Assembly (NCBI GenBank): GCA_013399875.1
Contig: VXAZ01002106.1
Coordinates: forward strand, 362,244-426,243
Length of the DNA: 64,000 bases
Source of the DNA: Gymnorhina tibicen
Taxonomy: Eukaryota > Chordata > Aves > Passeriformes > Artamidae
Direction: 5' to 3'
Shown: positions 594 through 34,048 of the stretch, piece by piece
Position numbering within the stretch: the first letter of the stretch is position 1
Layout: each line of letters opens with the position of its first letter
The notes under the pieces: generated by a model
The model's database searches: none
Seen by the model: the letters and a program-made list of their open reading frames with translations, nothing else
What the model was told of the DNA's origin: nothing
Translations under genes and position numbers: made by a program

Positions 594-660
594 CTTCTGA
601 ATAGCCCTGGCCCATCTTGCTTTTGCAAAATTACCTCCATTACCTTGGTCTGTATTTCTC
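594..660 (-). CDS. UNC13C: UNC13-family gene, coding exon 7 (calmodulin-binding-type helix)
   Basis: The acceptor is ttcccctccttttctccag and the donor CAGAAG|gtaaga; phase 2 to phase 0. It encodes residues 177-199, ending NFAKARWARAIQK. This basic amphipathic segment with Trp193 resembles the calmodulin-recognition helices of Munc13-1 (RAKANWLRAFNK) and ubMunc13-2 (ARAHWIRAVTK). In this family calmodulin binding here tunes short-term plasticity. The next exon, expected to lead to the C1 domain, lies left of the window, so the gene is cut by the window edge. Confidence 0.83.
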
Positions 661-2944
661 CTGGAGAAAAGGAGGGGAAAAAAAAGAAGTACTCAGAACA
701 GAAAAGTGTGAAAATAAATAATTAAAAGAAATCTGATAAATTTATGGATAAGTGCATTAAAGTCAGATAGATCCATCACTAACTCACAATAACACCTTTG
801 GATTACGGGGGGTTCTGGTTAAGCTAAGAGTTTACAGGCTTGAAAAGACAGGATCCCTGTTCCTCATAAAATCAAGGTATAAAAGAACATTAGCAAAGGA
901 ATACATTTCCCAGTTATAGTGGCTCATAAATCAGGATTACAAAGTCTTTAACATCAAATGGCAGGAGGAGAGGCAGAAAAATAACAGAAAACAACAACAA
1001 AATCCAAACCACCAAGAAAGGGAAAAAAGAGGAAACCTTTGAATTTCCTCAGTAAAGGCATATCCTTGTGAGACAGAGACACTGTCACCAAGTCTTTGCC
1101 AACTGCACTAAAGGAGTTACTGAGAAGCCACATTACATAAAAATAATACTTCCTCCCCCTCAAAAAAGTACCACCAAACAAAAACTAATGTTTACTCCAA
1201 CCAATCTTTGAAATACAATCTGTTGCACATTTGGTTGCCCTCACACAGAAGTTGCACACTTGCGCAGGCCAGTTATAATTAGGACTCATTATTCAGCTAC
1301 TGCACCACACCTGTGAAGAATGTTGGTTTAAACTGAAAAATGCTAATTCCATTCATGGCTGTTAAGCACAGGTTAAAATAATTAGTGTAGACTCCAGCAC
1401 ACTGAATTGCAAGTCTAAGTAATTCAAACGACACTGCCTTGTACAATACCAGTTAAGTTGCAAAATAAGAAGTATACAGTGAAATTCTACACATATAATT
1501 TACAGAGGACAGTAGAAGCCTGTTTACTAAGCGAAGTTTTTGCAGTATATTTATATTATACTTCAGTGCCATCCCTTGGTCTACACACTACTATTTAATT
1601 ATCTTGGACTTCTGGAACAGTGCTCTTTAATTTGAGGAGAAAAATGTTCCCTCTGATATGCACAGCTGAGTGCACATGATGCAAACTAAGTATGAAGAGG
1701 CTTGTCTTCCCCCTGCCCTCATCTCTGAGGCTGCAAGTTTGCAGGTTCAGCCTTTTTTCTGTTCACAACTGGGTTTTTGTTTTAAGGTAAATCAACCAAG
1801 TGATGCTAGTAATTGGTCCACCTCATCCTGCAGTTGTTAACTAGACTGGAAATACTGGGTAATAATTAACTTTATGAATTATCAGGGTAATTAACCTCAA
1901 GGTCAGACGGAGATTAGGTTGTCAGTGTTGATTCAGAGGGAAGCGAGAAACAGCTTTCTCTGCCTTAACTAAAAGTAAGTAGGGAAAAGAGTATTCTTAA
2001 GTTTTGAGGCCTCATGCACAGAAGGAGACAAACTGGTTTGACTGGTTTGCAGTACTTTTAGGAAGTCACCAATCTGTGATCAGACTGCTGAGCAGTCCGA
2101 CACGGCAGTTGAGTACACTTCTTATGCCACTTAGAAGCTCAGCACAGACAGACACAGCAAGGAGCTGCTTTCTACCTATCCACTTCCTGCTGACACAGTG
2201 ATGGGTCCAGTTTGGACAAATGGTTGTTAATTTTCTATTCAGATCTAGTAAAACTTATCAGTTACCTGGCAGAAAACACTTTATCAATACTGAACGAAGC
2301 CTCTGATGGCACGCGATTTACAGGAAACACATGTAACAAAGACCACCAGAAACTGCTGGGTACGATCAGTCCTGCTAACTGAACTGAGCACAAGGAACGT
2401 GTGCCAGGCAAATGCATTACTATAATTTTTTGAAACAAAGAATATAAACAACAGCACATTAGGGAACTTCACACAAGCATTAAACCAGAAAATAAGGGAA
2501 TCGCATCTGATAATTAGAAGAGCATTAATTGTCAGTGGTTGAACAACGAAGAGTTTGAAAACAAATGACAAAAGCCTTAAGAGTGCCTGAAAATCACACT
2601 GATTCACCACCCCTACAATACACAGCCCAGCTGTGGTCTCTGATGCAGTGCAGACCACAAGAACAACAAGAGGGGGAAAACTACAAGAGACACCTCAGGA
2701 GAAGTGGAGCAATATTCAGATCAGGTGAGTTCAACAAGCAGCCCAGGTAAAAGTTTTGATGTACGATGCATCAAACTCAGCAGGCTTTCACATCTCTAAG
2801 CCAGAAGGATCAAAATATTCAATCTTGCTGCAGTGATTTACCAACAGAGGACACGTTAGGAATGCAAAGGAATTGCATAGGCTAGATAAACACGGCGGCT
2901 CTTCAATCTGGTTTATCTAAAGCTAAGGATTTCTAATAGAAAAC

Positions 2945-3247
2945 AAAAGCTAAATTGACACTTTTATTTAATAGATGCTTCCCCTCTTAATTTTCCTGGC
3001 CAAATACATTAAAATTGCTCTAGCATTGCAATGATGATTTGCATTTTCACAGCACCTCCTGTAAAATTAATCTCACTACAGACTTCATTGTAATGCAGTT
3101 CATTATATAGCAGTTGCAGTGTGGCCACATACAGACAAAAAATGACGTCTTCTGGATGCTTATTTGTTTGTAATAGGCAATCCTGAATATCTGCATTAAT
3201 TTCTAAGTATTCATCAGGAATGTCAATTTTGTCAGCTTTGAACGTAA
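2945..3247 (-). other. Candidate terminal exon with poly(A) signal (segment D)
   Basis: A good acceptor (cttccacaatttgtttccag) leads into about 78 open codons, including FKADKIDIPDEYLEINADI and YVATLQLLYNEL, ending in TAA at 3009-3011. An AATAAA signal follows at 2963-2968. The residue composition (helical, charged, few low-complexity runs) looks more protein-like than other open frames in this intron. It enters in phase 1, so it cannot follow the UNC13 exon at 11213-11348 directly. No family is recognised. Confidence 0.33.
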
Positions 3248-5042
3248 CTGGAAACAAATTGTGGAAGAAAAATCGAAATAATTACACTCTAATATGACAT
3301 TTTTTATTTGGCAATTTCCACTCCCCACTGGCAACAGTCAGGCTGAAACTAACATCGTGTGCTTAAATCAATCTCCAATGGACATATCAAGCAGACGTAC
3401 TTGGATAGTACACCACCACAAAACTCTTCGGTTTTTCTTCCTTTAAATGTGCTTTTCAGACTATTCCAGTAATGCTCATTCTTGTACAAATATGCGATGA
3501 GGCTGATGACAATTTTGAGTTTTATTCTGCATTCTTTTATAGTTCAGGAAGGGGATAGGTAAGAATAAAGAAATATGAATGACAGCTTCTCCATTGGCTA
3601 GAAATACCAAGAACGGTACTTTCAAGTGTCTCACTTCCAGTCCTGTAACTTTTGAAACATGCACAATTTAATGTGCATTGGAAGTAAGCTTGTAACATAT
3701 CCCAAACTTTTTTGTGAGGATTTATACACTTGTTACTCATTTGGACTGCAGCAGCACAAGTCCTTTTGGAATATCCCCGTTGGTGCAGTTGCTACCAGAG
3801 TCTTGCACGCCAGGCCAAGGCAACATTAGCAATATTAGATGCACCTGGGCTACAAAAACATGTCCTTGTTACAGCACCAGAGATTGGCTGAAGCTGATAG
3901 CACTGAAATAGTTTTCAGCTGAAAACAAGGTGCCTTTCATCACTAGCTTTCAAGCCAACTCATGCACTTGGTAGAAGGAAACACTATTCTTACTGGAAAA
4001 TATGTCTGGGACGTGGAACTATGGAAATGGTATCCCATCAAGGATTATTGGACTATAAAGCTATAACTCAATTACAAATTTTTCATGGGCCTCAATTATA
4101 CAGTACAGATAAAAGAATCACTATAACATTAAAAAGCTGTGCAATAAGTAGCAGTTTAGTAAAACACTAAGACAGATAGGCAGTACTCATCCATCTTAGC
4201 TAAAATGGCATTTAAAGGAAATTAATGATGTGGTAAAATTGCAAAGGAAAACTAAGTGATCTAGGTTTTCCACAGTTAACTATATAACAGTAAGACCTAC
4301 GTTTTTAAAGCCTTGCATAGATTAATAAAATTTAGCATTACCCAACTGCCTCATATAGATATTTTTGTGCCTTAGTGACAAAAGAAGGTGGACTTTTCTC
4401 CAAGATAATTTTCTGGTAGTACTAAATCTATATCCCTATACAGGTTCCCTCTTACAGATGTTCAAGTTGCTCTTGAAAATTCAGTTTTCAAACACCAGAG
4501 CAGAGAACAAAACTTACTTATAGGTAATAAGCACTCAGTTACCCATCCTTACAGTAAAATTTTAGTTTTAAATCTGAGTATACGTTTTTCTTTTCCATTT
4601 GCTTTCTTATTGTCTAAAATAGTAAGTTTCAGTACCTATATTATTATCTTCAATCATATGTTTATATTACAGCTAGCTTTCACTTCAAATAGTTTACAGT
4701 TCTGAGTTCTTGGTGGTTTTTAAAACTAAAATTCCAAGTTCCCAGTTTCTTTGGGACAAGGTACTAAATTTTATCTGTATTTTGAGAGCAACATTACTAC
4801 AGTAATGAAATAACAGTTTCTGATTTCTTTGGGATCACCTTAAGTGCCTAAAACACACAGTACAGCAATAACATCTGTTTTCTATCCATTCAGAGTCAAA
4901 AATTTAGCAACACATAAACAGAAACTAAAATATGCTTACATATTTGCTTTAAGTTCAGTTTTTCCTCCAGCACTCTTTTACAAGTTACTTATCTAATCAT
5001 TAAGAACTTAAATCTTATACAAAACCTACACCTTTAACTCAC

Positions 5043-5180
5043 CTATAGAGCAAATGAATAAAGTTTGAAGGTACTCATTTATCCTCATAACAAAACTCGT
5101 ATTTTTTTCAAATTTTTCCCCCAGTTCTTCACAAGATTGTCATAGGCATAATTCACATTGATGTTGATCTTCATGTCTTC
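5043..5180 (-). pseudogene. Candidate exon with an internal frame break (segment C)
   Basis: The acceptor is cctctctcttcag and the donor CTATAG|gtgagt. The first half is open in one frame (EDMKININVNYAYDN) and the second half in another (SCEELGEKFEKNTSFV, then MRINEYLQTLF). The switch falls between roughly 5085 and 5125, where an A7 run also occurs. The second frame joins in phase to segment D. Either the unit is decayed, or the assembly has an indel, or this is chance. The family is not recognised. Confidence 0.27.
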
Positions 5181-5489
5181 CTGAAGAGAGAGGTCTGTCC
5201 CTGCTCACTTTTAGAAATACCCCACAGCCAAGTCTGCACAGCTGCTAAAGATAACCCATCAATTACTGCACCTGACCACCACTCCCCTTCCTGGACACAA
5301 TTAACTGCGTGGTGCTAGGGAAGTACCTTCCTCTCCCTTTGGTCTTTTCACTCCTCAGATGAGTCTAAAGTCTGATCACAGTGTGACTTATTTATGGGAT
5401 GTTGCTGTCTCTGTTAAAACTGATTCAGAAAATCATGGCTTGCTTTAACAATTACTTTCCAGTGATGTTGTTTTAGTGTTCTGACTTAC

Positions 5490-5568
5490 AATATGACCCA
5501 AAAAATTCTGGTTTTTTTCATGACAGATAGAGAAATAGCAAACTCTTCTGTGTAGCTGAGAATGAGTA
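5490..5568 (-). other. Candidate internal exon of an unrecognised nested unit (segment B)
   Basis: Very good splice sites bound this segment (acceptor ttatttctttttcccag, donor CATATT|gtaagt). One frame is open as phase 2 to 0 (26 residues beginning THSQLHRRVCYF). A second frame, phase 1 to 2, is also open, so coding is not certain. It could follow segment A, or follow the UNC13 exon at 11213-11348 in phase, giving a short alternative UNC13 transcript. Confidence 0.28.
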
Positions 5569-5897
5569 CTGGGAAAAAGAAATAATAACTGCTTAAACTT
5601 CCGTATTTTTGGCCACTTCAAAAGTTTAGACTTCAAAATATATAGAGGCATTTTGGATTCAACACTGTGTGACTTCCTTGTTATTTGATGAACCATTATT
5701 CTCAAACATTAATATGTCCCTTTCTTGAAAGGTTTGGTTTGCAAGATTGGATAGCATCTTGTTTTCATCATGATGGAGGAATTTATTCAATTATATTAAA
5801 CCTTGCTCTAAAGAACCACCACAACTGCAAGTGCTAAAAGGTGTGCAAACAGATATTCAGTAATCCATACCTAAACTATTTAAATTGCAATTCTTAC

Positions 5898-5932
5898 CAC
5901 TCAGAGCTATGAACTGGATTGTAAACTGCCAT
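5898..5932 (-). other. Candidate start exon of an unrecognised nested unit (segment A)
   Basis: An ATG on the minus strand opens MAVYNPVHSSE and runs into a consensus-like donor (GAGTG|gtaaga), ending in phase 2, which matches the start phase of the next segment at 5490-5568. An in-frame TGA directly precedes the ATG. No family is recognised. This may be a chance open segment; it is listed because it chains to three further splice-bounded segments. Confidence 0.2.
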
Positions 5933-8900
5933 TCAGATGTACCAAAACCACAGCTTGTGATACTGATCTCGTATACTTAATACAGTGCCAGTAAGCAATA
6001 GCTGATATTTCCCCCTACATTGCCATGGAACAGCAGCTTTGAAGAAAGAGTCTATTTTTTTAAGGCCTGCCAAGACAGTAAATCAACATTTTACAAAGGA
6101 ACTTCCAAGCTTTTCTGATGGATATAAAGATATTATAAGGCAATATTGCTACCTGAGAAACCCCCAGGAGATACAGTATCTCCTCAGTGCTGCAGTAGCT
6201 ACATTAATTATTTCCAAACTGCACCATGTTTATGTGAACAGAAGAACATGCAATTAGGACAGAAGCTGATTGACGAGACCAAAGGCTGTGGCAGGAGACA
6301 GGTGACACAAGGAAACACATGTTGATGTGAATAAGACATTATCAAGACATTGTTCTGCTGTCCAGTGAAGTTGCAGCTTTTAATCAATCTTGAATCTGTC
6401 AAAGTGTCATCTTGGATTGTTCCCAGAAAGCAAACAATGTCTAGCTGACACTTAAGGAAACTTTATGAATTTCTCCAGATTTTTTGCCTGGGTTTGCCAC
6501 TATGCAGCTATCTGTTAGTCCCCAGTTTCTCATCTATTTCAATGCTATATCATTAAAACAATTTTTTTTTTCTTCTAATACACCCAGCTCAAAAAATAAC
6601 AATGTGGGTATTTTTTTTCCCAAATATATACTGGAAAGACATATTTCTTCAATCCACTAAACTCAATTTTCTCTTACAGAATCTCTCTATCCATAACCAA
6701 TGCCTAATTTTTCAATTTTATTAAAAAGCCATCAAAATCAGTATTATAAAAGTATTTCAGTATGCATGCAATAAACAAACAAAATAAATTGCTGTGCAAG
6801 TATAGTAAACTAATTCCAGTGAAGTTTACCCTGCATCTGAGTATAATGGTATCTTCAGGCTAGTAGCTTAAGGACGAAATATGACACAGCACTAGGAGCC
6901 CAATCAAACCTTTCATAAACATTTGCTGCTCTTCCCATGGCAACTCTCTTTTCTCCCATTGTGTAGCTCTTTATGTAGAGTTCTCATACCCCCACCTGAA
7001 ATGGCTGTTGTTTTTAGAGATCAAGTCATACAGAGGAAGGGAATTTCTCTTCAGAAGAACTGATACCTGATGACTACTTCAGCTTTTCTGTAAATGAACA
7101 ACTTTTCTAGTAGTTTCAAGGGAATACTTGCACAGAGATTGAATCTTTTCAATCTTTTACACACAGCTATAAGTATTAATTAGATAAACTAGTTCCCAGA
7201 AGCCAACAAAGTTATCTAAAAAATTTACTATTATGTAAGGTCTAAGTAAAATCTGTTAACCTTTATAGCAAGTAAACCTTTTGGGAGCCAAAGATAAAAT
7301 AACCGCATACCAGTAATAGAGTTAATACAGTTACACGGTATTAGAAACCTCTAAGAAGGCATAGAACTTAATTAACCTAGGTAAGAGAAAGTTTCAAAAG
7401 CCTTTCCAATTCCTTTCAAACCTAAAGAATTTATCATGAATTATTTTATATTACAAAGAATCTCAGGGAAAGTCATAATGATTTCTCTTTTATTATGAAA
7501 AGTTGTCACCATAACAAACAATATAAAACTATGAATATTAATAAGGGAGTCAATTAAAGATCATTATCAGTTCATATCAGGATGCAAAAACAATCATCAG
7601 AACACTCCCAATAACCACAAACAAAACTTGTGAAAAGATTTAAGGAAAAGAAACTCATAACACCTGGCTACTGGGAGAAGTGAAAGAGTTTGGACTGGTG
7701 GGGATAGATACTGGAAGAAGGCAAGAGTAATCTCTGCTATGTGAAAAGATATTTGCATTTTATTTTAATGTGTAATCTATTTTATAACTGGGTTTTGTAG
7801 GTTATGTCATATATACAGCAGGATATAAAACTTGGCTGTATCTTTTGTGCTAGAGCCAGACACTGTGCCTCTTCCACCCAAAGTTTTTCCAAGATTGTCT
7901 CATTCCTAGATTGGAATACTGGCTCAAGCACAGCTCTGCCTATGTACCCACTGATGGAGACCCCCAGTCCTGGACTCACTGCCAGGCTTGAGTGTGCCTA
8001 TAATTTTTTCTATTAGCTAGGCATGAATAATGAAACAGATTACTGGAAAAATGGCTGTAAACTGATCACTTCAAAGGAATTTAGACCTCAGCAATTGTTT
8101 GCTTCTCTCTGTATGGAAAACCAGGGAAGATTAATTACATTTTTAAGAGGCCAGTTAATGCTCATGATATTCAAGAACTAAGAAACTTCTAAGACTACCA
8201 CAATGAAGCTTTCTTTTCAGTTTTCATCCATTTTAAAATAAATATGCATTTTACTGTCACAAATCACTAATTAATATCAGTTTAATGAATATTACATTAA
8301 AATCAGCATTGCTAGCGGCTGCAGGTCATGAAGTCCAATTTTAATAATATATCTCCTTTTAACACAGCACGTATGGTCACCCAAACCATTAGAAAAGAGG
8401 AAGCACTGTTAAAGCCAAACATTTTAGAACACGATTATCAACCCCAAATTTGTCAATACGATGTAGGTCTAGCAGAGTTTTGTGGGCAGCACATCCCTCC
8501 TTCTTTTCCCATGTATGTATCTATGACATCTACTCATCTGGCCTATGTAGGTAGAAAGAAATAAACATATATGGTTTATAATCCATTTAAATAATGGATT
8601 TTTAGTTGGTTTTTTTTTAAGGTAATAAATTTTTTTTCCTCCTGGTTCAATGATTTATTTACAGTTCTATAGTGAAAACAAGTATCACAGGACAAATTAA
8701 TAGTCTTTTTAAAAGAAAGATTCTTGTCCCTGCTGCTGTACTTCCTTAGGTTCTGGGGCTAGTTGGTTGTTTTTTAAAAGAAATATTTGTTCCCCTTTGC
8801 TTTTTTTGGAAATGCCCCTAATTAATTTTATGCTGTTCACTTTAGTTTATGATTGACAGGCATACCTGTACATTTCTGGCTATTCTGGATATACAGCAAC

Positions 8901-11212
8901 ATTATTTCTACCTCAGTGGTACCACAGAGATTAACCATGAAATCATTATTCCTGCGAGTAGTAGTATTCAGCACTGGACGCTAATAATGCATAAAGAGTG
9001 AACCAACTGATTTATTCTATGGCTACTATGGAGAAGTGGAATGAAGTATATAATAAATAATTGATTGCAAATTTTAAAAGTTCACAGTGATTTCTTCATT
9101 AATTACATTATTTGAAGAACAACTCAAATGATTTGTGGGTTTGGGGGGTTTTTTACCAGTATTTTCCCCTTCTCTGTCTGTCTGGTTTTGTTGTGTTTTT
9201 TTAAGCCTCTAGGAGAAAATATCTTGCTCTAACAAGAAGTCACTAAATAATTTACCACATCCGTCAAATGCTGATTTAGTGAGGTTTTGCTTTATGGAAA
9301 AAGTTAATCAGTTACACTTAATTAGTCATCAGTCTACACCTAAAATCAGCAGCCATAAACACCACTTATCTATATAACCAAAGAATTGGTAAATAAATAT
9401 CAGTGGAAAGAAAAACCTAAGGAAGAAATTCTGTTCACATTAATACTTATATATTTACAGGACAATTAAATCTGGTGTTTAATACAGCTATTCAAAACAA
9501 ATAGTCTCATCTACTTCCCTGCCTTCTCAGATTTTTAGTACAAAAGCAGTTATTTGGAATAAATACACATCTCTATTTATAATTAAGCTTTAAAACAATG
9601 ACCATCTTTCTGCTCAGAATCTTTGAAAATACCTATTATTCAATAGAAGAACTTTTCATTTAAAAACAGTATCTTGTAGTTCAGTGCTGACCCTCAATTT
9701 AGTACTGTAAAACCTCATTTAATTTCAATAAAATTATCTGGTACAGGGATAAAGGAAAGAATTCCATAGTCAGATTGGATTAACTTCTTTCAGTTTAGCT
9801 TAGCCTGCTCAGAGGCCCAGATCTCTGTTGAAAATGACACGTCAGCACAGATGATATGCTAATGACTGGACATGTGCTGAGAAAAGTACAGAGAAACAGC
9901 TCTTGAATGCTGCCATTACTGACAGCTCTCACCCTAAGGAAGCACTTGTACTTCTCTGTAAATATCCTGCAAGGACTGACCAGTAAATGTGAACAGGCTG
10001 AGGCTGACAGGCACCCAAGCGATGCTGTGGCACCTTGTCCATGTGCAGTCTCCGACTAGCTGCGCCCCTGAGCTGGAGTTTTTTCCAGACTCGTTTATTT
10101 CCTAATTTTGTGTTGAAGTTACATGCACCAGGATCCTGCTTTTTTAGAGTACATGAAAAGATCATTTAAGTGCATCAAGATGTTATTGCCTCAGAGAATA
10201 CATAACTTAATAATGTAATAGTTTTTATCATATTTTCTCTTGTGTTTGAGCTAATTTTCTAGTACCACTGCTGTTAAGACATGATTTAAACATGAGCCAA
10301 GTGCCTGACACACCAAACATCTTGCTGCCTTTCCCAAGAGCCTGTTCTACCCCTCATCAAGACCTTTTGGAGTGTCAGCTGCTCAGTGTCTTTCCTGCAC
10401 AGCTATAGATAAAGGACACCATGAATGAAAAGTAATACAGTCTGTGACAGCTGATACGACAGCCAAAATGAACAGTAGAGGGAATATTTTTTTTCCCATG
10501 TGCCTTTCAAAAGAAGGGAAGTGATTAATCCAACACATAGAAAGTTCTCTCTGCTCAGAGACCACTGCTGAGTGGTGTTCTTAGAGGCTGAATGGGCTCC
10601 CTCCTGAACATTCAACTCCACTCAGCAGGAGGTGATGGTAGAGACATAATACAGTTGTTGCCACCTTATTTCCTTGCTTCTCCCACCATTATGCATCATC
10701 ATTTCCCACACTCAGGTAAGCAGAAAGACAGCAATTATCTTTCCCTTATTTTTTTTTTCCCACTGCATTCTTGTTTGTTCAAAACAAACAGACAGAAAAT
10801 ATTCATTCTCTTCTGGAAAATTTCCAGAAATGGAGGCAGCCCATCTAGGTAAACATATTAGCTTCAAAAATGGAATCAAATGTCTTTCCTGCTTTGCAGA
10901 TGAAATCAAATAGTCACAACACCCAAATCATGTAAGGAGTTGCTTCCCTTCCTTTCTAAGCTTTCAGAAAGTCAGTGTGGAATAGCTGGACCCTATGTAG
11001 ACACATGCCCAAGGATGAGAACAGGACAGGTGCACATGTAGTTGCCATAAAAGAACATAGAAAAGCTAATAAATACCTGGATTTTCTTTATAAGTTTAAG
11101 AAACTTTCAGTCAAATTCTTGCTTAAAATAATTTTATATGCATCATGCTGACATTCACACATCTAAAAAAAATTAAAAATCAACAAATGGTATCACACGT
11201 CGGATAAAATAC
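5933..11212. other. UNC13 intron, no feature recognised
   Basis: AT-rich intron sequence. Only short chance open frames were seen; no repeat family or exon of either gene was recognised. Confidence 0.6.
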
Positions 11213-11348
11213 CTTAGTTTGCTTTCTTGTATGCTGAGCCCACTTTCCACAGATGACTGACTATCATTTGTATCTTGATGTAAATGTCTTGTACGTTGGA
11301 GAGGTGTCCCTGTGAGCCAACCTCTGCAATCTAAATCTGTGTGGGTAT
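11213..11348 (-). CDS. UNC13C: UNC13-family gene, coding exon 6 (linker after C2A)
   Basis: The acceptor is ctttttccttctctgcag and the donor CTAAG|gtattt; phase 1 to phase 2. The frame needed to continue from exon 5 is the open one: it completes Asp132 (LPFD) and then reads 44 residues, with the Ser/Gln/Asn-rich patch DTNDSQSSVESGLSIQES. Munc13-1 and ubMunc13-2 have a much longer low-complexity linker of some 200-300 residues here. Additional phase 2-to-2 exons between this one and 660 cannot be excluded, so the linker may be longer in some transcripts. Confidence 0.85.
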
Positions 11349-14300
11349 CTGCAGAGAAGGAAAAAGCTGCTAGAAATCTTTCAGTCCATTTTACTTCTAA
11401 AAGAGGAAGTACACGTAAAACTAATTAACTTAATTCATTAGATCTATCTAGGAAATTATCAAATCAATTGAAAACATTATCATGATTAAATCTCTTATTA
11501 CAAGAATGGCAGAAAGAGTTCCAAGATGATCTTCTGATCGTTACTCTGAAACTTTGAGAGGCCTAAACCAGTTACCTTCTTGTTTTACAAAGTTCATTTT
11601 ACAGTTTAAAAAATGACCTATTGCTGGATTGGGAAGAAAACTGATCTTTTAAGTTTTCCAGTCCAACTTGCCATGCATTTCTTATGGGTCCATGTACAGC
11701 ATTCTGAGATTTGGGTTTTTTTGTTGGATTGGATTTTGGTTCTGTGAGGGTTTTTGCGCATGTGCTTTATGTAAGGAATCAGGCTCTACTTTAATTCCAC
11801 ATGCTATTGGCCTACAACTGACTTTTTTTTTTTTTCCAAGTTCTAGGCTCTTGGGAGAAACATGGCAAGTCTCATCTGCAACTGGAGGTACAAACTGATT
11901 TCCTGAAGAATATTTTGCTCTATAAATCATTCTATTAGCTTTAGTGAGGGAGAGGGTTCATGATCTGACCCTGATTGTGAGGGAGTTTTCTTCCATGATG
12001 ATAAGAATCTGTGTGCTCATCTCTTTTTTCCATTTTTAAAGTTTTGGTTACATATTGGGAACGATGCTTCGATTTATTTTCCATCACACTGTTTACCAAC
12101 ACCAGGTAAGCTGCCAAAAATTTATGTCATATTTTTAGCTCAAAGTGAATGTAACACTGTTGTGGAACATACAGAAGATAAAGGTAATACTTCGGAAAAG
12201 AGGATCTTTTGCTTTTCTTACTGCATATGTTAATGCAAACTTTTAGGTTGTGAGTATTTGATGCATGAGTCTTCCCAATCAGTCTATTATGATTTTTCAG
12301 GACCTTGGTTTATGCTGATCAAAGTTGTATCAGAACAATTAATTTTCTCATTTGCTAATCCCTTGGCGTATCAGTGCATTAGTATGGTGACTAATGCAGA
12401 AACAGGGATTAAACTCATCATTGCTAATTAATGTGTATGAAAAATGTGATAATGAGTTGAACTTCAGCTAAGCCTAAGACATGAGTTCTGCACGGTATTT
12501 TCCAAAATTGTTAATGAGGGAAAAATATTTTTGACTTTCTTGGCAAAATGACATCTTAGCTTCCAAGACACACAAATGATTTCCCAAATTACAGCTATTA
12601 CCAATTACTTCAGTAAAATTATCTTTAATTTCTTTAGCTTATACTCTGTATGTAAGGTATAATAATGTTAAGGAGCAAGCTACATATCTGCAATGCTGAA
12701 TTCAAGGAAAAAATAAGACGTCATTTAACTTTTCTTCTGTTGGCTCTCACAAGACAGACTTAATAAATTTGAAGGAAAAGTACTGTATTTCATAAACCCC
12801 TGATTACGCTTTAAAAACCTTGACTTTAAGAAACATTAAAAATGTTTGCAATCCAACTGTAGTGTTTATCTAAATTCGCTATTTTATTTGTGACTTTGCT
12901 TGCAGAACTTTGAGTATAGTAGGTCCTCATTTTACTTAGCAGCCTCTTAATGGAGCTCAGTCTAGCTGGCAATGGTGAAATGGCAACTTTATTGCTACCA
13001 CAACTGATATTCGATGATACTTCTAGAAAAGGCACTGAACTACTGATGAGAACACATTTCCATGTCGCTACATGCAGGATTTCAAATCCAAATGAAGTCA
13101 TACGATTAAAGCAGCATGGAAGGATCTTGTATTTCTGCCCATTGGCTGGCATTCTCAAACTAACATCTTTCAGGAATTGTCAAAAGTAACTGCAGTCTTC
13201 CACCTTTCCAGTGTAATTTGTCATAATAAAGAGGCTGTACTGATTCCAATAGTCAAGGACAGATTCTCAGGTGCTCACAGCTGAGCTGAGCCATTCAATA
13301 GGATAAGCAATGAAAATGCCCTCGTCAAACCCCAGGTAGATGATAAACCTGGCTGTCTCAATAACTGACATAATGCTTTTGAATTCTTTCCTCAGTGAAG
13401 AAAACTACAGTGTAAGAGTGACCTCTACAGGATTTCCACAGTGCTCTGTGACTACAGTCCCAGGGACTGTCTTTGGAACATTTTCAAATCTATTTGTTTG
13501 AAAACAGAATACAAGCTTCAGCTTACAAACCAACAATCTCCAAGAAGCACCCTGAAATCACCAACAATCTGAACTTATATCTTGTAAATACACGGAGTTC
13601 CTATACCAGATTTACAGTAGGTTTCTAGGTATGAGAACTATGTAAAGACGTACTTAAAACATCCTGCTAATTCAACGTACCAAAAGACCAAAGCAAACAA
13701 AAACCAGAATGCAACTAGGGCAGAGGTTATCTTTTGAAATTTTATTGGCCAAGTAGTAAAGAAGAAGTAATTTTTGTTAAAAAACCAAAACAACAAAACA
13801 AACAAACAAACAAAAGTAGGCCCTGTTGTAAGTAAAATAGTCTACAGTCACTCTGTGGAAAGACACGCATTCCACTTCATGTATTAACAGGAGTTTAGTC
13901 ATGCAGACTACACCCAAAGACAATTTATCAAGGTTAATCAAAGACAATGTATTTTAAAAAGAACATTAGACAGACAAAGACCGTATTTGTGGTATAACTT
14001 CTAGTCCTCTTTTCAAATAGTTTGTTATTCACATTTGTTCACTTTTTTTTTTTACTTTATTCTTGCATAAGTTTTAGGATGAATCTCTTTAGACACAGTT
14101 CATTAGACTATTTAAAGAGTAAAATATTAAGATAAATTATGTTTGTGAACTTATTTGAGATAGACCATGTCATATAGATTGATTGATAATCTCAGTAAAG
14201 TCAATCTCCGTATTATATCTGGAGATAATGCGTGGTGATGTATTATTTGAAGTTCAGTTTCCATTTCTAACTTCATATACCCTACATTCATATTCATATA

Positions 14301-14742
14301 CATATAAATAGTTTCCATCTTCAGATGCACTAAAAATAAAGGTAGACAACCTTTTCTAGGAAGTTAAAAAATGCTGTGAAGGCCTGGATTTTACTAAAAC
14401 TTACATTGTGCAAAGAGCTGGTCAAGCTGATGCGCTGCAGAGCTGTGTGTGTAACACAGGCTCTAGTACTGACCCTTAAGGAGGTACTTCCTTCTTCAGC
14501 GCTGCAATCCACATATGGATGAACACTAACTACTGAAACTGCTCATCCAGCTCCTTGTGGAATGTGATTTTTGCTTAACAGTAACAATTACCAGCATCAA
14601 TTGCGAAAATGTGATGAAAAGGCGTTTAGGATTCCATAGAAAAACTGCTATTTGTTGTTGTATTTCAGGAACTTAGGTGCAATTTCAGGAACTTAGAGAG
14701 AAATAGAATGGCTGGAATGCTGGACCTTCATCTGTAACTCAC
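11349..14742. other. UNC13 intron between C2A end and linker exon
   Basis: Intronic. It contains a CAAA-type simple repeat near 13780. An open minus-strand stretch at 12826-13158 has no convincing splice sites and was not called. Confidence 0.6.
13780..13814. repeat. (CAAA)n-type simple repeat
   Basis: An A-rich run of CAAA/CAA units, the most regular part being four CAAA copies near 13799-13813. Confidence 0.9.
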
Positions 14743-14866
14743 CAAATGGTAATGCAAAGTAGATATCTAGTAAGATCTCATGAGAAGTTGGTGTTTTTGT
14801 GCCTTGAATTTCACTTCCATTTTTTATTACTTCAGAATGCAATCTCCACCAGGAACCTGGGCCTTC
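14743..14866 (-). CDS. UNC13C: UNC13-family gene, coding exon 5 (end of C2A)
   Basis: The acceptor is cctgtttttcctag and the donor TTTG|gtgagt; phase 0 to phase 1. It encodes residues 91-131. It opens EGPGSWW, matching EGPGEWL of Munc13-1, and continues through [19 protein letters not shown] and ALPF, matching EICGTKDPTFHRILLDTRF and ELPL. This closes the C2A domain, with all strands present over about 130 residues without an insertion or deletion relative to Munc13-1. Confidence 0.93.
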
Positions 14867-16559
14867 CTAGGAAAAACAGGTTATGGAAATTACCTGGGCA
14901 GGATTTATAGCATTATCTACTTTTTACTGAATGAAGCTTCCCCTAAGTCAATAGGAGTTCCTTTATAACACCATTACAGTATTTTCCAGTTTTTGTTTAT
15001 GTATTAGTTAGGACTTCATCAAGTTTTCTCAGTCATCAAATTCAAAATATAACATTTTCACTACAATATAGACAAATAGACATTAAGGTTGTCAGATGAT
15101 TATGACACAACAAATATGAATATTGAAAATTATTCCTATCCAGTGAGATTTTCCAGTTCGCCTTTGAACCGGTACCAAACAAGAACACTCTAGCAAGACT
15201 GAAACAATCCATCTAAGTTAATAACCAAGCCAAAAAAGAGCTCCTAAAGTAATGCTCCCTTGTAAGTAATCTCTGAGTTATAAAGCCCAGAACAGAACTG
15301 CAGGGTTAAGACCAGGAGGATAAATAACTAGGAAAGTTCCACTAATCATAAATGAAGGTTTAGAGAATCTGAAGAAATTAAGAAACAATCTCTTATCTTG
15401 CATCTTTGTTTGTTTAAAGTTTCAGTATTTACAAGTAAGCCACAACCTCTGTGTCAGCAAGTTGTAACTCAGCAACAGCTTGGGCAGCAGAGCAGAACAA
15501 CTTGCCCTGGGGCTTGAAATGGCACTTGGCAGCTGTAATACAGAGCAACTTCTAATTTAAGCAGGAATTACTTTCTTCCCCTGCTTCCATTTTCTGAGAA
15601 GAATCATTGAAATGTCAGTTCAATGTAGATATTAATATTTATTAGTTCCTGTAAAGAAATGGCTACAGAGTCTGATGAGAGATACTGCAGGAAGTTATTC
15701 TCTGATTTTCCTACCTTTACCCCATCTTCAATTGCCTTTTTTATGTTTTACAGATATTAAAGAAGTCAAACAATTTTTATTTGCAAAGACTGAATTAATC
15801 TTCTCTAATTCACAGTTACTTCTTTGAAAATAGCCTCCATGGACTATGCATAGGAAAGCATATTTATGACTGGGAGAATCATGGATTATTAGAATAAGGT
15901 ACCTCTTACCTTTTCAGAATTTAGAAAATTTTGCAGCAATTGCAGTTTGCTTCAGTATTTTCACACTCCCAGAAACCCTTTTTCTTTATTTTATACCGTA
16001 CTGAGAGCAAGTACGGTCATTCTGGTGGCCAAGTGACTTTTGCATTGACTCAATTTGCCCACTCATCCTTCTCTATGCCCTCACTGTACTATTAATTTCT
16101 TCTGTAATACTACAGGGCACATTTCTGTTTTCCTCTTTGAGACAATGGTGGATTCCCATAAGAAAGAGAACAACAGTATTCTGCCCATTTTAATAGAGAT
16201 TTACCCAAGGTCACAAAATGAAGACCATGGAACTTGATCTAAAATGCTTTCACTCTAATCATATAAACCAAAGCATCCCTGCCTCCCTAATCGTTCCTGA
16301 GTGCTGATGAACCCTAATTCACTTTCTGTATTATACCTGGCCCAGTATCTGAGCCATTTCTCCAGGGTATATGGCTAATGCCTATCAGTTGCCACTTTGA
16401 GAGCCACATGTACATCATGCCTTAGTACTACACACTGAAGCAATGGAGTTAGAAATATACATTGATCGCACATGTTGTTACAGTATTTAAGGAGTCCAAG
16501 ACCAGAAAATTTATTCAATTTTACTCAGTGTTTTATATTTCCACAGAAAGTCAACTTAC

Positions 16560-16677
16560 ATCTGTTGCATATTCCACAGTGGCAAGGGGAATCCATAAAA
16601 CTCCCAGAATGCTATCCCAGAGCAAGCCTTTCTTCCACAGCTCTATAATGAAGCCCTTTCCATCAGCACAGATTTCA
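16560..16677 (-). CDS. UNC13C: UNC13-family gene, coding exon 4 (C2A core)
   Basis: The acceptor is ctgtattcattcttttag and the donor ACAGAT|gtaagt; phase 2 to phase 0. It encodes residues 51-90. The stretches ELWKKGLLWDSILG and LWIPLATV match EVWNKGLIWDTMVG and VWIPLRTI of Munc13-1 at the same spacing. The first base completes the Phe codon of DFMF from the previous exon, as in the paralogues. Several third-position differences from mammalian paralogues and an intact frame argue for a conserved coding exon, not a recent copy. Confidence 0.94.
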
Positions 16678-19600
16678 CTAAAAAGAATGAATACAGAAAT
16701 CATTAAACTGAAAATGCAACCTGAACTGCTCAGCAATCTATAATAACCCATTATTAGGTTATTATCTTCTTACAGCAGATACAGAGGTGGGGGTTTTTCA
16801 GTATACTTGTAAAATACAAACTAGCAGGACAAACACAAATGTTTGACTGAACAAGCCAAACCTCAAGTCTTACTGTTCAGGACTGCCCTTACAAAATGAT
16901 GAGGACAGTTCTGCTGGAACAATGGGAAAACAACTCCCAACTTCAAAAGTTTCAGATCCAGACTCTATTTTAGTTCTAATTACAGTATACATGCATTTTA
17001 TTACTATCTGGTTTTGACCAAAAAAAAAACCATCTCACAACCTTATTTTGCAAGAATTTAAAATCAAATTTTACCAGGCCATATGAATCCCCCATGACAC
17101 TGAATTAATATTAAAAGATAGGTTATTTTCTCAGGGTATGTTCCCCATTACAGACCAGTTCTGTAAATATGAAAAATATAATAAAGTAGGTATTGGTGTT
17201 TCTGCTGTGACTCATTGTATGTAATCTCCATTAATTTTAAGCAGTAAAACTCATCTTCAACTTATTTGTGTGGGGTACCACAGAGCATTACTGTGTACTG
17301 AAAGTCATCAGGAAAAGAACAAGTGAAATCAGAGAATGGCAAAGAGTGCCACCTCCAAAACAGCTACTTAACTCATCACCTTCCTCTCAAAAACCATCCT
17401 GCATCAATGTCTAATTTTCTGCTATACTTGCTTTACGCAATTGAATAGATACATTGAATTTTTGTTTTATTCAGCTTTTCTCTTTAAAAATATGTTATGG
17501 AAGACCAATGGCAAATTTTTATCTTCTAGTATTTTTGGACCCCAATTTCAAAACTGACAACTGAACAGTGAAACTGCAGATTGAAAGGTTAGGCAATATC
17601 TGCGTGTAATGGAACACAGTTTTTACTGGCAGAGATGCAGTGAGAGCCCTTAAGATAATGAACTGTAATATACTTCTTAAAATCTAGATAAATATATTTG
17701 TAAATGCTTGTTTATTATCCTTTTTCAAAGTCTGCTGTGTTGTATAGATGAGTAGGCAGCAGATGGAGCTACAGCAACCTCATAATGCAATTGCTACAAA
17801 AGTGGTTTAGCATTCTTTGGTAACTAGTACACAGCAAATGAAGAAAATAATCCTATTAAATTGGTAATTTTTAATGATGGCATAGAACACTCATTTACAT
17901 ATAATATGGTCAAAACCATTTAAACAACAGCAAATCAAATGTATTAAATAATAGTATAACACATTCCTCAGGAAAATTTAGAGGTTAGGTTACACACACT
18001 CACTTTAAAATAATTTTTAATTGCCTCCTGCCTAAAAGTTAACAGACAGGGCAAGGGCTGAAGTTTAATTATCTACTTCCTGACATATTTTAACACTGTC
18101 ATCCAATCCATGCCCAGTGGTTTATAGAACTATTATGTCTAAATCAGTCAAGTTCTGAAATAATTATGATAACAGAGTATTATCATAGAGCAATGATTCC
18201 TCTACACTGAATCGTGACTCTCTTTTCTACAAGAGAGAGCTGCAGTATAAGAATGGTGTTTAAAAAGGCCAGCTATTCATAATAACTTTCCTTAGCTTTT
18301 TCAAAGTTATGATCAGATATGATCCTCCTCTTTGGATAATTTAGGCTGGGGCTCTGAACAGTCTGTTGGAGAAGCCTGGTGACCAGGGAATTGGGGGAGG
18401 AATTAGTCCCAGAATAAGATTAGACTGATGTGGTCAGAAGTCAGAATTTTTGATGAGTTCTATATGTCATTACATCTATGCAGAAAATGGCATGTAAAGA
18501 AGGTACATAAGTTGACCTAATCTAAGAGGCTCTTTAGCTACTCAGAGTCTCCAGCTAAGCAAGACAGCAGTTTGCTATAGTTGTCAGGAAATCAGTTGCA
18601 TGAAACCAAAAGAATATTTCAAAATCACTTAACTTCAGAAAAAACCTGTGATGAAGATAAGGCCCTAAAGTGAGATTAAGAACATTGTGTACTATGTGAA
18701 ATAACCAGGAAGGAAAAACGGAGAAGCTTTTAGAAATTCCATTTTTAATATAAAATAAAATGAAATGAGGAAGGAGTGAGTTATTTCAATCAAAGTGTCA
18801 ATTTCAGCATACAATCAAAATCTATTTACATGTTTTGATAACCAGAAAGTATGGAAAAATGTTGCAAACTAACTCATTCTTTCAACAAAATATTAAAATA
18901 CTTGGACTAGAAAAAAAAAAATTCTGAAAAGGACATTTTTCATAAAAAAAACTAAAGCAAATTAAATGCTTAATTTTGTAGACCTCAGGAATAAAGTTTA
19001 CATTTCGACGACAAGGATGTGATGACAGAGGAAGATTTGTGCGGGGAAAAAGAAAGGACCAAAAATGATGGAGATTGATGTATTAACTCAGAATCTAATG
19101 GGATTATATTAATTGGGTTTAACTGCTTTGGAAGTGAGAGCTGAAAGCAGTTTTCCTCAGAATGTCAGTCAGTGTAAAAGTGTTTGGACCCTCCTGGCCA
19201 GTGAGGTATACATAAGGCTCTGCAGAAAAGAGAACGATAACAACTGAATAACAAGATGGAGAGTGGAGTGAAGTGGACAAAGATCTGCAGAGAGAAGTGA
19301 CAATCAGTATGGGTCAATGACAAAGAAAGTACCTAAACTGCAGTTAAGTAGATAAATTAATGCATAAAATATGAGTCATTCATAATGAAGTTGATAGAAC
19401 AAAAATCAGGTTGTGTGAGGATCAGTTTGAATTCTTTATTGTCTCATTCCTGTATTCCTAAAACATCATATAAAACTAAATTGGAGACAAATTCTTCCCC
19501 TTGTTGACTGCTGACCTTGATCTGACATGTGGCTTGCAAAATTAACTTTAGTTCCGTTCCCCAGAGCTAGTCTGGCACCTTTTCTCTGAGCTGGATATTT

Positions 19601-19713
19601 CTTCCTTGCTTTTGTGGACTGTACATGACCTCACACGCACCAAATTTTGCTACACTGTACAAATACAGCAAAGATACAACAAAATCAATTGATAAGAATT
19701 CCCTTTCACTTAC

Positions 19714-19813
19714 AACATGAAGTCTTGTTCCCAGCAAGGCTCACTTCCTCTTCTGTCTATTGTAGTGCTTTTTAAATTTTGGACTTTTAAAACAACATAG
19801 GTTTTGTATGTGT
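19714..19813 (-). CDS. UNC13C: UNC13-family gene, coding exon 3 (C2A core)
   Basis: The acceptor is ggttatttctttttcag and the donor ATGTT|gtaagt; phase 1 to phase 2. It encodes residues 18-51 of the joined protein, including [15 protein letters not shown] and WEQDFMF. These are near-identical to TYVTLKVQNVKSTTI and WEQDFMF of Munc13-1 and ubMunc13-2. Lys32, which in Munc13-1 lies at the C2A homodimer/RIM interface, is kept (NLKSTT). As in other Munc13 C2A domains, the calcium-binding aspartates of a classical C2 domain are not evident, so a protein-interaction role rather than calcium sensing is expected. Confidence 0.93.
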
Positions 19814-22800
19814 CTGAAAAAGAAATAACCAGCACATTAAACCCCACTTCAGCTCTTCCCAGAAGCTGAAACATTCACCCATATGGCAGCAAGGGTTTAA
19901 CTCATACTTCATACGCACCTCCACTAAAAGCTGTGAGCCAAATATGTGGATTTCAACAAGGAAATTTTTACTAATTTTAGTAGGATTATGACAGAAAAAT
20001 CTCTGCCCATGACAGGTGGGAGAGAGCATAATCCTAAATGCGAGTATTTTAAAGATGAGGTTCCAGACACAGCTTTTTACTGCTTATCAATCTCTCTGGC
20101 AGCTCTTGCAAGAAACCAGTACACACTCCTTTTCTGCAAATTAGGATTTCTTTTTTTGCCTTTTAATTGATATGATAATATTGGGGACTGGCTAATGGGC
20201 TTTTATGTCCAATTAAGGCAAAGCCATAGACTTGTAATATGTAATTCAGTCTTTTTGCATGAATCTAGTTCTGTGTATAGATGCAGCAGGAAAATAGGTT
20301 TCAGATGCAGTCCCAAATGAACTCATAGATTTTTGAAAATGCCTCTGAAAAAGGTACAGTATGAGTATTCATAAAATCGGACCTTATCAGCAAAAAGAAT
20401 AAAATTTTTAAAATTTCAAAGTGCTCGAAAATATCAATGACAGAAAAAAGCAAAAGAACTGAGGGAAAGCTCTGTCCTGTAGGGCCTGACACAGCAATCT
20501 AAGGCTTCAAAGGCATATTCTATCATCTCAATGAACATGGGTTTTTAGCTTGCATGCATGGAACACATCCTTCTCTACCCTCCAGCATCCTAGATAAGGA
20601 TCAACATTGATGTATGACTGAAAAAAAGACTTCTTCTTTTAATAGAACTACTGCCAAAATATATATATACAAAACGGAGTCAAGAACAGAATTCTTGAAC
20701 TGTCTGTATTACCACAGGTCAATCAAACACTCTGAGCTGGAGGAAAGCTGTCACTGTCAACAACAGATTACTGAACAGGTTGTATCAAATTACACTGCAC
20801 TCAACAGAAGGTGTGAAGCAGAAGTGTTGGCTGTGTACATCCTGTCTGTAGATCTTATTCATTAGGACCAATTATAATATTTGACCAAAGGACTAAAGAT
20901 ATCATGTAACGGAAATTATTTTTTTAATAAAAAAAGTTAATAATGGCCAATGTTATCTATTTATTTTCTATCACTCAGTGCACCAGTCTTCTCAAACATG
21001 ACTTTGTTTTTATACAAAACAATGTGACAAAGTCAATATAAATGTAGAAATCTGCTGACTTATTTGTGAGAAATGGCATCAACAATGCATGGTTCACACA
21101 CTACCATTCTGTGTAACTGAGGTAAACAAAACACAAAATTTGCAAAATCTTTTGTATTTGCAAAACTTTTTTATAGCTGGGAGAACTTGCAACTCAAGGT
21201 CTGAGAAATTTTCAAAAGAATTCTAAATTACGTGGCTGAAAAATAGCAACCTACAATGTTTAACTTCAGCCATTTAGAGCACCCATGTAAATTAAAACTA
21301 CAATACTGACCTCCCTCATAACTAAGAGGTATCTCCTTTAAATGAAGCCATAAATGACAAGGTAGAAACTTAAAAACACAATTTTAATGGTAGTCTGTTT
21401 CATGGTTCTATTATTTCATATTCAACCCGAATTTATTTCCCATTTGAAAATCTCATGTTACTATGTGGACACCAGATGATCAAACCTAATCACTTGGTGT
21501 CTTTCTGCAGCTCCTTTTCTAACGTGAAAAATAAAAAAATATCTTGGACTGCCTGCATTATAGTCTTGCCTGAAACCTTGTCATCTGCTTTTTAAAATAG
21601 CTATTTCTCCACTACTTCCTTGGCCTCTTTGGCTCTTCTCTGGATCTAAACCTTACCCTTTGGTGCTTTTTGACTAATTCACTCTCTTTAAATGTCATGA
21701 GTTGTGTCAAATAAGACAATGTGTATACTCTACCTTTTAAATAACTGAATATGTAACCTCCTTGAAGGATAACACTGTCAAGGGTGAATATTATTACAAT
21801 ACCGTGGCAATGGAAAGGAGCTGTCAGTTTTGCTAAATGATAAGAAGTTTTGTTTCCACAAAGCCATTATTGCAGCTTCCAACCCTTTAGCTGTCAACAA
21901 CTGGAGGCATGTAAGGCAATTTTCGTGAAAAGAAAAAGGGCAGGTTATCCACCTGCTCATACCTTCAGCTTTCAACCCAAAAGAGGGCAGAGCAGCTTAC
22001 ACCAAGGAGTAAATAAACTACAGAAGAATCACACAGTTTTGAGAAATGTGGGTATTTCAAGACTACTCTCGTTCACCACCTACAGAATTGTTCTGCCCAA
22101 GGAAACATGACCAGTTATCAGAGAATACACCATTCAAACTTTATTGCTATTACTTATGGCATTAACAAGAGTTCAATAGCATTTAAAGGAAAATTAGAGT
22201 TACTTATTTTTATCAAATTATTCTGTTTGATAATCATGTTCTGTAAATTATCACCTCTTGAGTACTAAGAAAATATAAGATAACACTATAACATTTTTCT
22301 GATTGCATTAGGATTTCAATAAAAGAGAAAATATTTTTCACTCTGTACACATATTTCATAGCCTTTTGTTAGAAGAACTAGCAGTTCTACCCATGTCCAT
22401 TTGGGTAACCTTCCTTTAATCCAGAAAACTTTGAACAATTTGAATTTGCTTGCATTTATTAGCCAGACATCTACTGGCAAATTTTGCTACACTGATTAAG
22501 TCATATATCAGCTTCTCCTGAGAACTAGTAATTACAAAGGTCTTGAAGGCCTGAAATTTACAGTCTGTGTGTGAGAAACCTCTGGCTGTGCTCGGACTTT
22601 CTCTTCCACCATGGCTGAATTTTGGTCCTGGAGATAGACTTGGGTAGTCCCGGGTCATGTTTATTGCTCCTTTGCTCATATATACCTGGTCTCTATAGCT
22701 GTCTACCAGTGTCTCCTGTCTGGATTTCCTCACCGGGAAAATTCAGACATCATCTTCTCCCCACCCTGGCTAAGCTAAAATACTGTACTCTCCTTATCCA

Positions 22801-23126
22801 AAAAAAGTTTCTGTTGACTGATGACACATTTAGGTCACCAAATTATGTAAAAATTTGCTTTAGTGGAAATATATTTTAAATATCACTGTTTGCGAGACAA
22901 TAACACTTCATAACTTAAAATTACAAACTGTCTCAGCTCACAACTTTGGTTGATAATTTGATCTTTAAAATATAGGTGTAATTCTGTCCACATTTATTTT
23001 GTACTGTACTGTTGATTCAACGTGTCAAAGGAGTCCCAAGTTTAACTGATTCTTCAGTGTGATACAGAACCCCATGCCTAAGAAAGAAAAATGTAAAGCA
23101 GAAATTGAAGGGGGAACCAGACTTAC

Positions 23127-23156
23127 CAGTTGTTTTATCCAACCTTCCTTTTTTCA
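23127..23156 (-). CDS. UNC13C: UNC13-family gene, coding exon 2 (C2A first beta strand)
   Basis: This 30-base micro-exon sits between a T-rich acceptor (gtttttttaacacag) and a consensus donor (CTG|gtaagt). It is phase 1 to phase 1 and reads V-KKGRLDKTT-D once joined to its neighbours. This aligns position for position with VKKAKFDGAQE of the Munc13-1 C2A domain, residues 8-18. It is too short to be found by open-frame length alone; the call depends on the splice sites, the phase match on both sides and the family alignment. Confidence 0.85.
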
Positions 23157-24466
23157 CTGTGTTAAAAAAACCCAAACATATTATTAGTTTCAGATAATAC
23201 CTTAACACTGTTTTCCAATAAGTTTTATGAAAATAATATCTAAGGGATTTAGGTGGCATAAAAAAAAATCAACCAAAAAAACCCCCAAGTAATCTTTTAA
23301 AAGTATCACTATGGGAAGATAATATGATTGCTTGGAATTCTTTTTGGAGACAAAACATGTGGAAACTCTTTGTACTTTACAGGAACTTAAATACAGAGGG
23401 CAGAATGGAGATCAGGTGTTCAGGAAGGGTATTATACTTATTATTCATCACCTCATAATGCCAGTTCTAAATTCTTCCCAGTAATAGTCCCAGCAGACTG
23501 ACTGACTGTATATAATCTAAAATAACTTCTATCATTTTACAAAGAATCCTTTATTACAGTGTACTTATTCTGCCTGTTAGGAAGGACATACTTCAGTAAA
23601 CACCTTACCAAATAAAAAGGTCAAATTTGAAATTTGAACATTTCAAATGCTGGTTTTTCTCAACAACCTAAAGTTCCACACCATGCTATCTCTTCCATTA
23701 ATGAAAAATGCTCTGAAGCTAACAGAATTGTGATTCAGATATTCATAGTTATGAAAATTTAACCTGGTCATAATTTTTTATCAAGTGTCTGACTAATAAA
23801 GTTCAGTAAATTTAGACTTTTAAACAACATTAAATGTACTTTAAATTTCCCTGCCATGTCAATACATGTAAGACAGTCCAGTTTAATTTGAATGAAACAT
23901 CACTGCAGTCCTACAATAATTAAACCTGCTCTATGAATATATTCATGAATACATCATATATTTTACTGCTATTCTTAGGACCTAGTAATTGCCAATAAAA
24001 CAAAATGATGAATCCACAACTTTACAGTGTAAAGGTTCCCTAGAGACTGCCATTGTTTTCCAATATCCTTTCCATTTGCTTAATCTCCTGTACCTTCCTA
24101 TTACTTATTCTTGCTTTCATCTCTCCCTAAATATCCCTAAGAATTCTATGGAGTTGCACCAGATTTGCAGAATGTCTGTCACTCCAAATAATTCCATCAT
24201 GTCTCACACCCAGGAAACTTTCACTTTCAACACAAATGGTGAGGGGCCTAAATGTTGCTGAGCTACGAACGGAGTCTGAACGCGGCAGCAATTCAACTGC
24301 ACTACAAGAGGGCACAATTTACATACTTCCCTTAAGGAAGTACTGCCAGAAATATTCTCATCAACATAAATGAGCAATGCACAACTCCAGTCTCTGAAGT
24401 TACTTTTTATAGCTACCTACTAAATACTTGTCACATGGATGAAGGAGCTTGATAAGAACAACCTAC

Positions 24467-24711
24467 CTTTTACAGAGAGAAGTTCCATTCCAGTAGAAAA
24501 ATGTTTTAAAGATCACACATTGAAATTCAGTAGGTTTTTTTATACGAAAGGAAAAGAAATAGATTGGCTTGAATTAAATTACTCCTCTGCTGCTGCTCCC
24601 TCACTGCATGTGTGTTTCACTTTTGCAGCACGCTCCTCCCATGGCTCACATGGAGGGAAGCCAACCAATTCATGGAGCAGAAATGACAAATTCCTTCTCC
24701 CTCCTTACACA
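24467..24711 (-). CDS. UNC13C: UNC13-family gene, start-codon exon (5' UTR plus first 22 coding bases)
   Basis: The coding part is 24467-24488 on the minus strand and reads MELLSVK, ending in phase 1 (G) at a good donor (AAAAG|gtaggt). Munc13-1 starts MSLLCVG and has its first coding intron at the same place, inside the following Val codon. The ATG has G at -3 and +4, and an in-frame TGA lies eight to nine codons upstream. The 5' UTR part is inferred to reach a strong acceptor (cctcttccatctcag) just above 24711; it holds several upstream ATGs. The protein family primes synaptic vesicles and anchors at the presynaptic active zone. The UNC13C symbol rests on divergent synteny with WDR72; the family call rests on the joined C2A sequence. 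A long unrelated plus-strand frame crosses this exon and is judged chance. Confidence 0.78.
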
Positions 24712-33198: not shown

Positions 33199-34048
33199 AT
33201 ATATTTATATGGTACTAATGTGTACTACTTTTATGGAGTGATTTGCTTTCCTGAGGCAACAAACACGATGTTGAAAGACAAAATAGAAATCACACAGTTT
33301 TGTGACCCTGTCTGAGCATAAGATGCAATTAAGGCCTTTGGTGTGACCTTCCCTTTGTGTCAAATTGTGCTAAAATATATGTGACAGTTTTTGTTATGGA
33401 AACTTCCATGTATCGATGATTAAGGAGAAGCTGTCAAAATAATTTATTTAGGTTCAGAGGCAGAATTCGCAACTCACATGAAGTGTCAAAAAGCACAAGC
33501 AATATCTAGTTTATCCATTACGTTACTTGGTCTCATACAATTATATCATTTTCTTGATAGCATTTTTTGACTACAGAAACTTTAGCTGAGGTTCCAGTTA
33601 TCACTATTGACTTTAAAGGGCCAGTGTTCCCCTTTTCTGAGAAAATAGTATTAAGGTTCTTAAAGTAAGTTGACTTCTGTTGTCTCATTTTGCTTTCAAT
33701 ATGATTTTTACTAAAATCTCCATAAGCAAGCCCAGAAAAGATGTACCTTTATAAGTTTTCACCTGAGATACCATGTTTCAGTGTTCTACACTTGGCCTGA
33801 TGAAGTCTAATCAAACACCATGCTTTACATTAAAGCTCTATTTTCAGGATTTATAACTTGTCTACATAAAATGATTCATATGGTGAAGTGATTTAAGAAG
33901 TCTCATCTTCAAAGCTTTTTGTTTTATTGTATGAAAAATTTTTTGAAATCTAAACTACAGAAGTGCTAGGACAAAAGTTTGCAAGAAATATGTTTCAACA
34001 AGTTACAAACTTTACATGCTTTTGTCTTTATTTATAGCATTCACTTAC

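Follow-up and report, generated by a model that had tools for sequence, protein, structure and literature searches.

The switch between a C2A homodimer and a C2A/RIM heterodimer is a standing model of how synaptic vesicle priming turns on. Among the Munc13 proteins, ubMunc13-2, the long isoform of UNC13B, carries a C2A domain and a tryptophan helix on a shared C1-C2B-MUN-C2C body, and it arises from alternative first exons, next to a form with a longer N-terminus. According to PMC5436228, the K32E exchange disrupts C2A homodimerisation and leaves RIM binding intact; E128K and E137K together abolish RIM binding and do not affect homodimerisation. Mammalian Munc13-3 (UNC13C) and bMunc13-2 are described there as proteins without C2A (PMC5436228). 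Herein, C2A exons at the UNC13C locus of a bird are described.

The DNA examined comes from Gymnorhina tibicen (VXAZ01002106.1, positions 362,244-426,243, forward strand), and this whole stretch of 64,000 nucleotides is referred to as the window. Seven exons, all on the minus strand, were rebuilt from the window DNA, and their coordinates are exactly those of the initial annotation. The coding part of exon 1 (ATG GAA CTT CTC TCT GTA AAA G, 24467..24488) encodes MELLSVK and is followed by the donor gtaggt; its start is common to models P0001-P0006 and P0055-P0058. Exon 2 (23127..23156) holds the VKKGRLDKTT region, part of C2A strand 1, and was aligned to 2cjt. The C2A core is encoded by exon 3 (19714..19813), which includes Lys32, and by exon 4 (16560..16677). 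Exon 5 (14743..14866) ends the domain, with Ala at the Glu128 position (YFALPF). Exon 6 (11213..11348) encodes a linker of 45 residues where Munc13-1 has the helix with Glu137. Exon 7 (594..660) encodes the NFAKARWARAIQK helix, which presumably resembles the start of the calmodulin site of Munc13-1 and ubMunc13-2, and it ends in phase 0. The splice borders are canonical, with AG at all six acceptors (exons 2-7) and GT at all seven donors. The out phases are 1,1,2,0,1,2,0. Joined, the exons give an uninterrupted reading frame of 597 bases (199 codons), which confirms the earlier reading of seven phase-matched exons encoding a full C2A. A TATAAAAAAA stretch, read from the sequence at 24535..24544 on the minus strand, some 47 bases before the ATG, is a possible core promoter element.

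The 199-residue product was compared with the PDB by phmmer. The C2A of rat Munc13-1 was matched at E 1.8e-44 (2cjs) and E 1.8e-42 (2cjt), and the 2cjt alignment is free of gaps across residues 1-127. The sole other matches up to E 1 were two aminoglycoside phosphotransferases (E 0.58-0.59), which were taken as chance. Over the ungapped residues 1-131, 72/131 are identical to rat Munc13-1, so the proposed gap-free alignment of about 130 residues holds. The window C2A shares the gap-free alignment and Lys32 with Munc13-1 (UNC13A), and differs from it in the remaining positions and in the RIM-contact residues Glu128 and Glu137, which are not retained. For Pfam C2, the score of 34.5 bits exceeds the cut-off of 22. 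Relatives spanning all 199 residues comprise 13 named bird rows, with identities of 72-96%, and one further row at 92%. Chance is excluded as the source of the exons and of the C2A homology. No Rfam match was found anywhere in the window.

On the plus strand, WD-repeat exons lie at 43517-60340, in a gene that we take to be WDR72 rather than WDR7. Compared with solved structures, it matched only designed or generic beta-propellers, so this comparison does not separate the two. A GC-rich block at 34001-36000 (49.5% versus about 36% around it), some 10 kb away from exon 1 of UNC13C, is likely the promoter region of this plus-strand gene.

Two phylogenetic trees were used to determine the gene identity. 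In the C2A tree, built without P0056, the window, birds, two turtles, a frog, two sturgeons and elephant shark form one clade with support 100/99; the frog row is long-branched and its exact placement is unsure. The body tree, from C1 to the C-terminus, was set up with 16 rows, one of which was dropped, and did not include the P0055 body. Here P0056-P0059 group with elephant-shark UNC13C at support 100/100, and UNC13A and UNC13B stand apart. Together, the trees support the assignment of the exons to UNC13C. The downstream C1/MUN exons, looked at in joined models of relatives, are likewise those of UNC13C and not of UNC13A or UNC13B, as the initial annotation had expected. Several short models carry the NCBI names 'unc-13 homolog A-like' or 'B-like', but it is extremely improbable that the exons are part of UNC13A or UNC13B, given the C2A clade, the UNC13C body joined to this C2A, and the identity to rat Munc13-1, which is 72/131 here but as high as 90% in fish UNC13A rows. 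Both the body clade and the database names make mammalian Munc13-3 the product of the same gene as the bird protein; PMC5436228 describes the mammalian protein without C2A, whereas bird UNC13C has one. The top entry of the best 120 of 565 matches, P0138 (Fundulus heteroclitus LOC110368697), was rejected as UNC13B-like with an internal C2A-region repeat, and not UNC13C. This 1,270-aa protein has a second, partial copy of C2A and the following region, and its Pfam list contains neither C1 nor MUN.

Five models with the full seven-exon head (P0055-P0059) run directly into a C1-C2B-MUN-C2C body. They were found among the 83 matches listed in a protein search admitting long proteins. Four are from Corvus moneduloides (NCBI UNC13C isoform X2; 865 aa, incomplete), Prinia subflava (P0057, NCBI UNC13C isoform X2, with a 90% cluster of 132 sequences), Rissa tridactyla (NCBI UNC13C isoform X3) and Ara ararauna (NCBI UNC13C isoform 2-T2); the fifth, P0056, has 1,403 aa and comes from a contig of 5,241 bases. 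At the junction, ...WARAIQK is followed by ARIVS... (P0055, P0056, P0058, P0059) or AQLVS... (P0057), and then by ...GLYGIDSMPDLRRKK... A contig of this length that encodes all 1,403 residues in one run must be cDNA, because the exons of the head alone are distributed across 23.9 kb in the window. Similarly, the 1,048-base contig of P0029 is spliced: across exons 2-6, it matches the chicken model P0017 at every one of 163 consecutive residues. The join of exon 7 to the C1/MUN part was seen in relatives only. The shared downstream exon is absent from the window, in a search that found both of two known exons used as positive controls.

Several Ensembl bird models (P0061-P0072 among others) have the C2A exons fused to SHTMPVRRNRK... 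and SDKDLESDINKN... pieces, followed by the shared body. These pieces presumably correspond to the extended N-terminus of mammalian Munc13-3. The fusion models look chimeric, but in them the C2A exons precede this extended N-terminus on the same strand, which indicates two alternative heads at the locus, as in UNC13B. The long head is skipped in all five joined models. From the gene anatomy and the transcript-like models, we infer a promoter upstream of the C2A exons. These results support the view that the exons contribute to a long isoform with the layout of ubMunc13-2: C2A, tryptophan helix and shared body. Bird UNC13C differs from ubMunc13-2 in being the third paralogue, in its much shorter linker between C2A and helix, and in lacking Glu128 and the Glu137 helix.

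The initial annotation had proposed this long UNC13C isoform for birds. The isoform itself is upheld by the joined models and both trees; the restriction to birds is not, since turtle, frog, sturgeon and elephant-shark sequences fall in the UNC13C C2A clade. No turtle or frog long model with a C2A of this clade was found among the 83 matches listed or the best 120 of 565. The proposed ancestral origin of the layout is supported by the elephant-shark and sturgeon members of the clade. The elephant-shark UNC13C proteins P0097 and P0104 (Ensembl via UniRef) carry the same-clade C2A on a UNC13C body and keep Glu128, which is lost in birds; the sturgeon members, unlike birds, keep Glu137 as well. 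No mammalian, lizard or crocodile C2A at UNC13C was found among the 54 or the 83 matches listed, nor in the best 120 of 565; the searches were seeded from bird or turtle sequence and are weak evidence of absence.

In the first protein search (54 matches listed), bird and turtle entries of the product appeared; most of them are short models, and one chicken model is named UNC13C. Bird UNC13C models with C2A are already present in NCBI and Ensembl, and other records are short 'unc-13 homolog A-like' proteins. Existing UNC13C annotations with this C2A were among the refuting observations named in the initial annotation, and this one is partly borne out; novelty is lowered by automatic annotation that already lists the isoform. 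No description of C2A in UNC13C was found in the open-licence PubMed Central literature.

Sequence conservation was measured as mean pairwise identity among the window and 15 bird sequences. Identity was 88% in the C2A core, 80% in exons 1-2 and 66% in the exon 6 linker, which is the fastest-evolving of the long segments. The 13-residue helix (187-199) reached 94%, and the nine residues before it 56%. The C2A module is constrained at the protein level as judged from these sequences. Calmodulin binding by the helix, whose tryptophan is conserved, is a putative function. The protein-level contrast between the C2A core and helix on one side and the linker on the other argues against the view that the exons are a decaying relic, annotated yet functionless. 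Such a relic would fit the description of mammalian Munc13-3 without C2A in PMC5436228, and several annotated models have odd start or end points; however, the frame is open and the splice sites are intact in the window, the C2A core and helix are much more conserved than the linker, and spliced contigs exist (P0056, P0029). A relic is therefore very unlikely.

Early-ending models outnumber the long ones among those listed. A common TLQEAM...SGFGF tail with a stop was found in 10 of the 23 short models that reach exon 7 (P0001, P0004-P0006, P0011, P0014, P0015, P0017, P0018 and P0030), from ostrich and chicken to passerines, and on this basis a C2A-only product may exist. The exons might then chiefly yield a separate C2A-helix protein of about 216-240 residues, whose free C2A would cap other Munc13 C2As and act as a natural competitor of homodimerisation. 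The conserved tail, its presence in the chicken Ensembl model P0017, and a frog short model that stops after the same helix with the arginine-rich end RRPEVMRRRRFLVRP are consistent with such a protein. However, the remaining 13 of the 23 models end in dissimilar sequences resembling intron read-through, the tail exon is absent from the window (both positive-control exons were found), and P0056 is a long product on a cDNA-like contig. The mean pairwise identity of the tail, 73% over 24 residues, is close to that of the variable linker and does not demonstrate selection on it. The tail may be a genuine short isoform or a recurring gene-prediction result of a conserved stretch, and we regard a mainly short product as quite unlikely. 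The structure model of the short form had a mean pLDDT of 46.6, too poor for use.

The residues at positions 32, 128 and 137 were read in 203 proteins, which include many same-species isoforms and are not independent rows. The window has Lys32, Ala128, and at position 137 Leu (ungapped) or Asp (gapped). Lys32 had been taken as a sign of the dimer/RIM interface. The Lys is indeed present, but it is a homodimer residue and not a RIM residue, as the K32E result in PMC5436228 indicates. It does not imply RIM binding, and the proposed RIM-binding C2A is not borne out, as the RIM-binding residues are not retained. Lys32 is found in 76/80 readable bird, turtle and frog UNC13C rows. The other rows (P0041, P0042, P0019 and P0044) have Thr (tinamou), Arg (wood-quail and pigeon) or Gln (frog); the clade is thus not invariant at this homodimer position.

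Position 128 is Ala or Val in 85/85 readable bird, turtle and frog rows, with Glu in none of them. Glu is present in 2/2 elephant-shark rows, 4/4 readable sturgeon rows and 109/109 readable UNC13A/B-type rows. Beyond it, where Munc13-1 has the helix of residues 133-150, the window and its bird kin carry a linker of unrelated sequence. Position 137 is hard to align in tetrapod rows because this entire helix is replaced; it is unreadable in 29/41 short bird, 33/40 long bird, 3/4 turtle and 1/1 frog rows (about 64/85 overall). Where it is readable, Asp occurs in 12 short bird rows, four long bird rows and one turtle row, and the long bird rows also include one Lys, one Asn and one Glu, the last in P0067, a chimeric model entering other sequence. 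Glu137 is found in 3/3 readable sturgeon rows and 108/108 readable UNC13A/B-type rows; the elephant-shark rows are unreadable there.

These residue changes predict that the tetrapod UNC13C C2A can dimerise but not bind RIM. The prediction draws on charge-reversal mutants of another paralogue, and Glu to Ala is milder than Glu to Lys. A real long isoform could still bind RIM via other contacts, as a plain ubMunc13-2-like, RIM-recruited protein of the kind proposed in the initial annotation. The retained fold and the many C2A residues kept are compatible with this, and the mutants in PMC5436228 reverse charge at two residues simultaneously. The missing E128 in every readable tetrapod row and the swapped 133-150 helix stand against it, and retained RIM binding is an unlikely alternative.

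The reading that we consider probable as a whole is that the exons are upstream alternative first exons of bird UNC13C, giving a ubMunc13-2-like isoform with a dimerising C2A and no RIM switch. A promoter upstream of 24488 would drive a transcript coding for C2A, the short linker and the tryptophan helix, and exon 7 (594) would be spliced to the first shared UNC13C exon. The product, some 1,400 residues long, would contain C2A, helix, C1, C2B, MUN and C2C, parallel to ubMunc13-2 of UNC13B. This layout would date back to the ancestor of jawed vertebrates; on the tetrapod branch, the C2A fold and Lys32 were kept, and Glu128 and the Glu137 helix were lost. With this combination, the protein most likely dimerises and lacks the switch by the RIM zinc finger to an active monomer. 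The dimer partner may be the UNC13C C2A itself or that of Munc13-1/ubMunc13-2.

Tentatively, UNC13C in non-mammal tetrapods may be a RIM-independent, dimer-biased priming factor that ties up Munc13-1/ubMunc13-2 C2As, aided by the short product; in this scenario, the coupling to RIM would have disappeared after the sturgeon split, and the whole module later in mammals. Of these points, it is the missing RIM residues that merit a test. A natural Munc13 with the homodimer residue but without the RIM residues would offer a ready test of RIM binding versus monomerisation. The statement that Munc13-3 lacks C2A would also be corrected, as it appears to be true of mammals and not of the gene.
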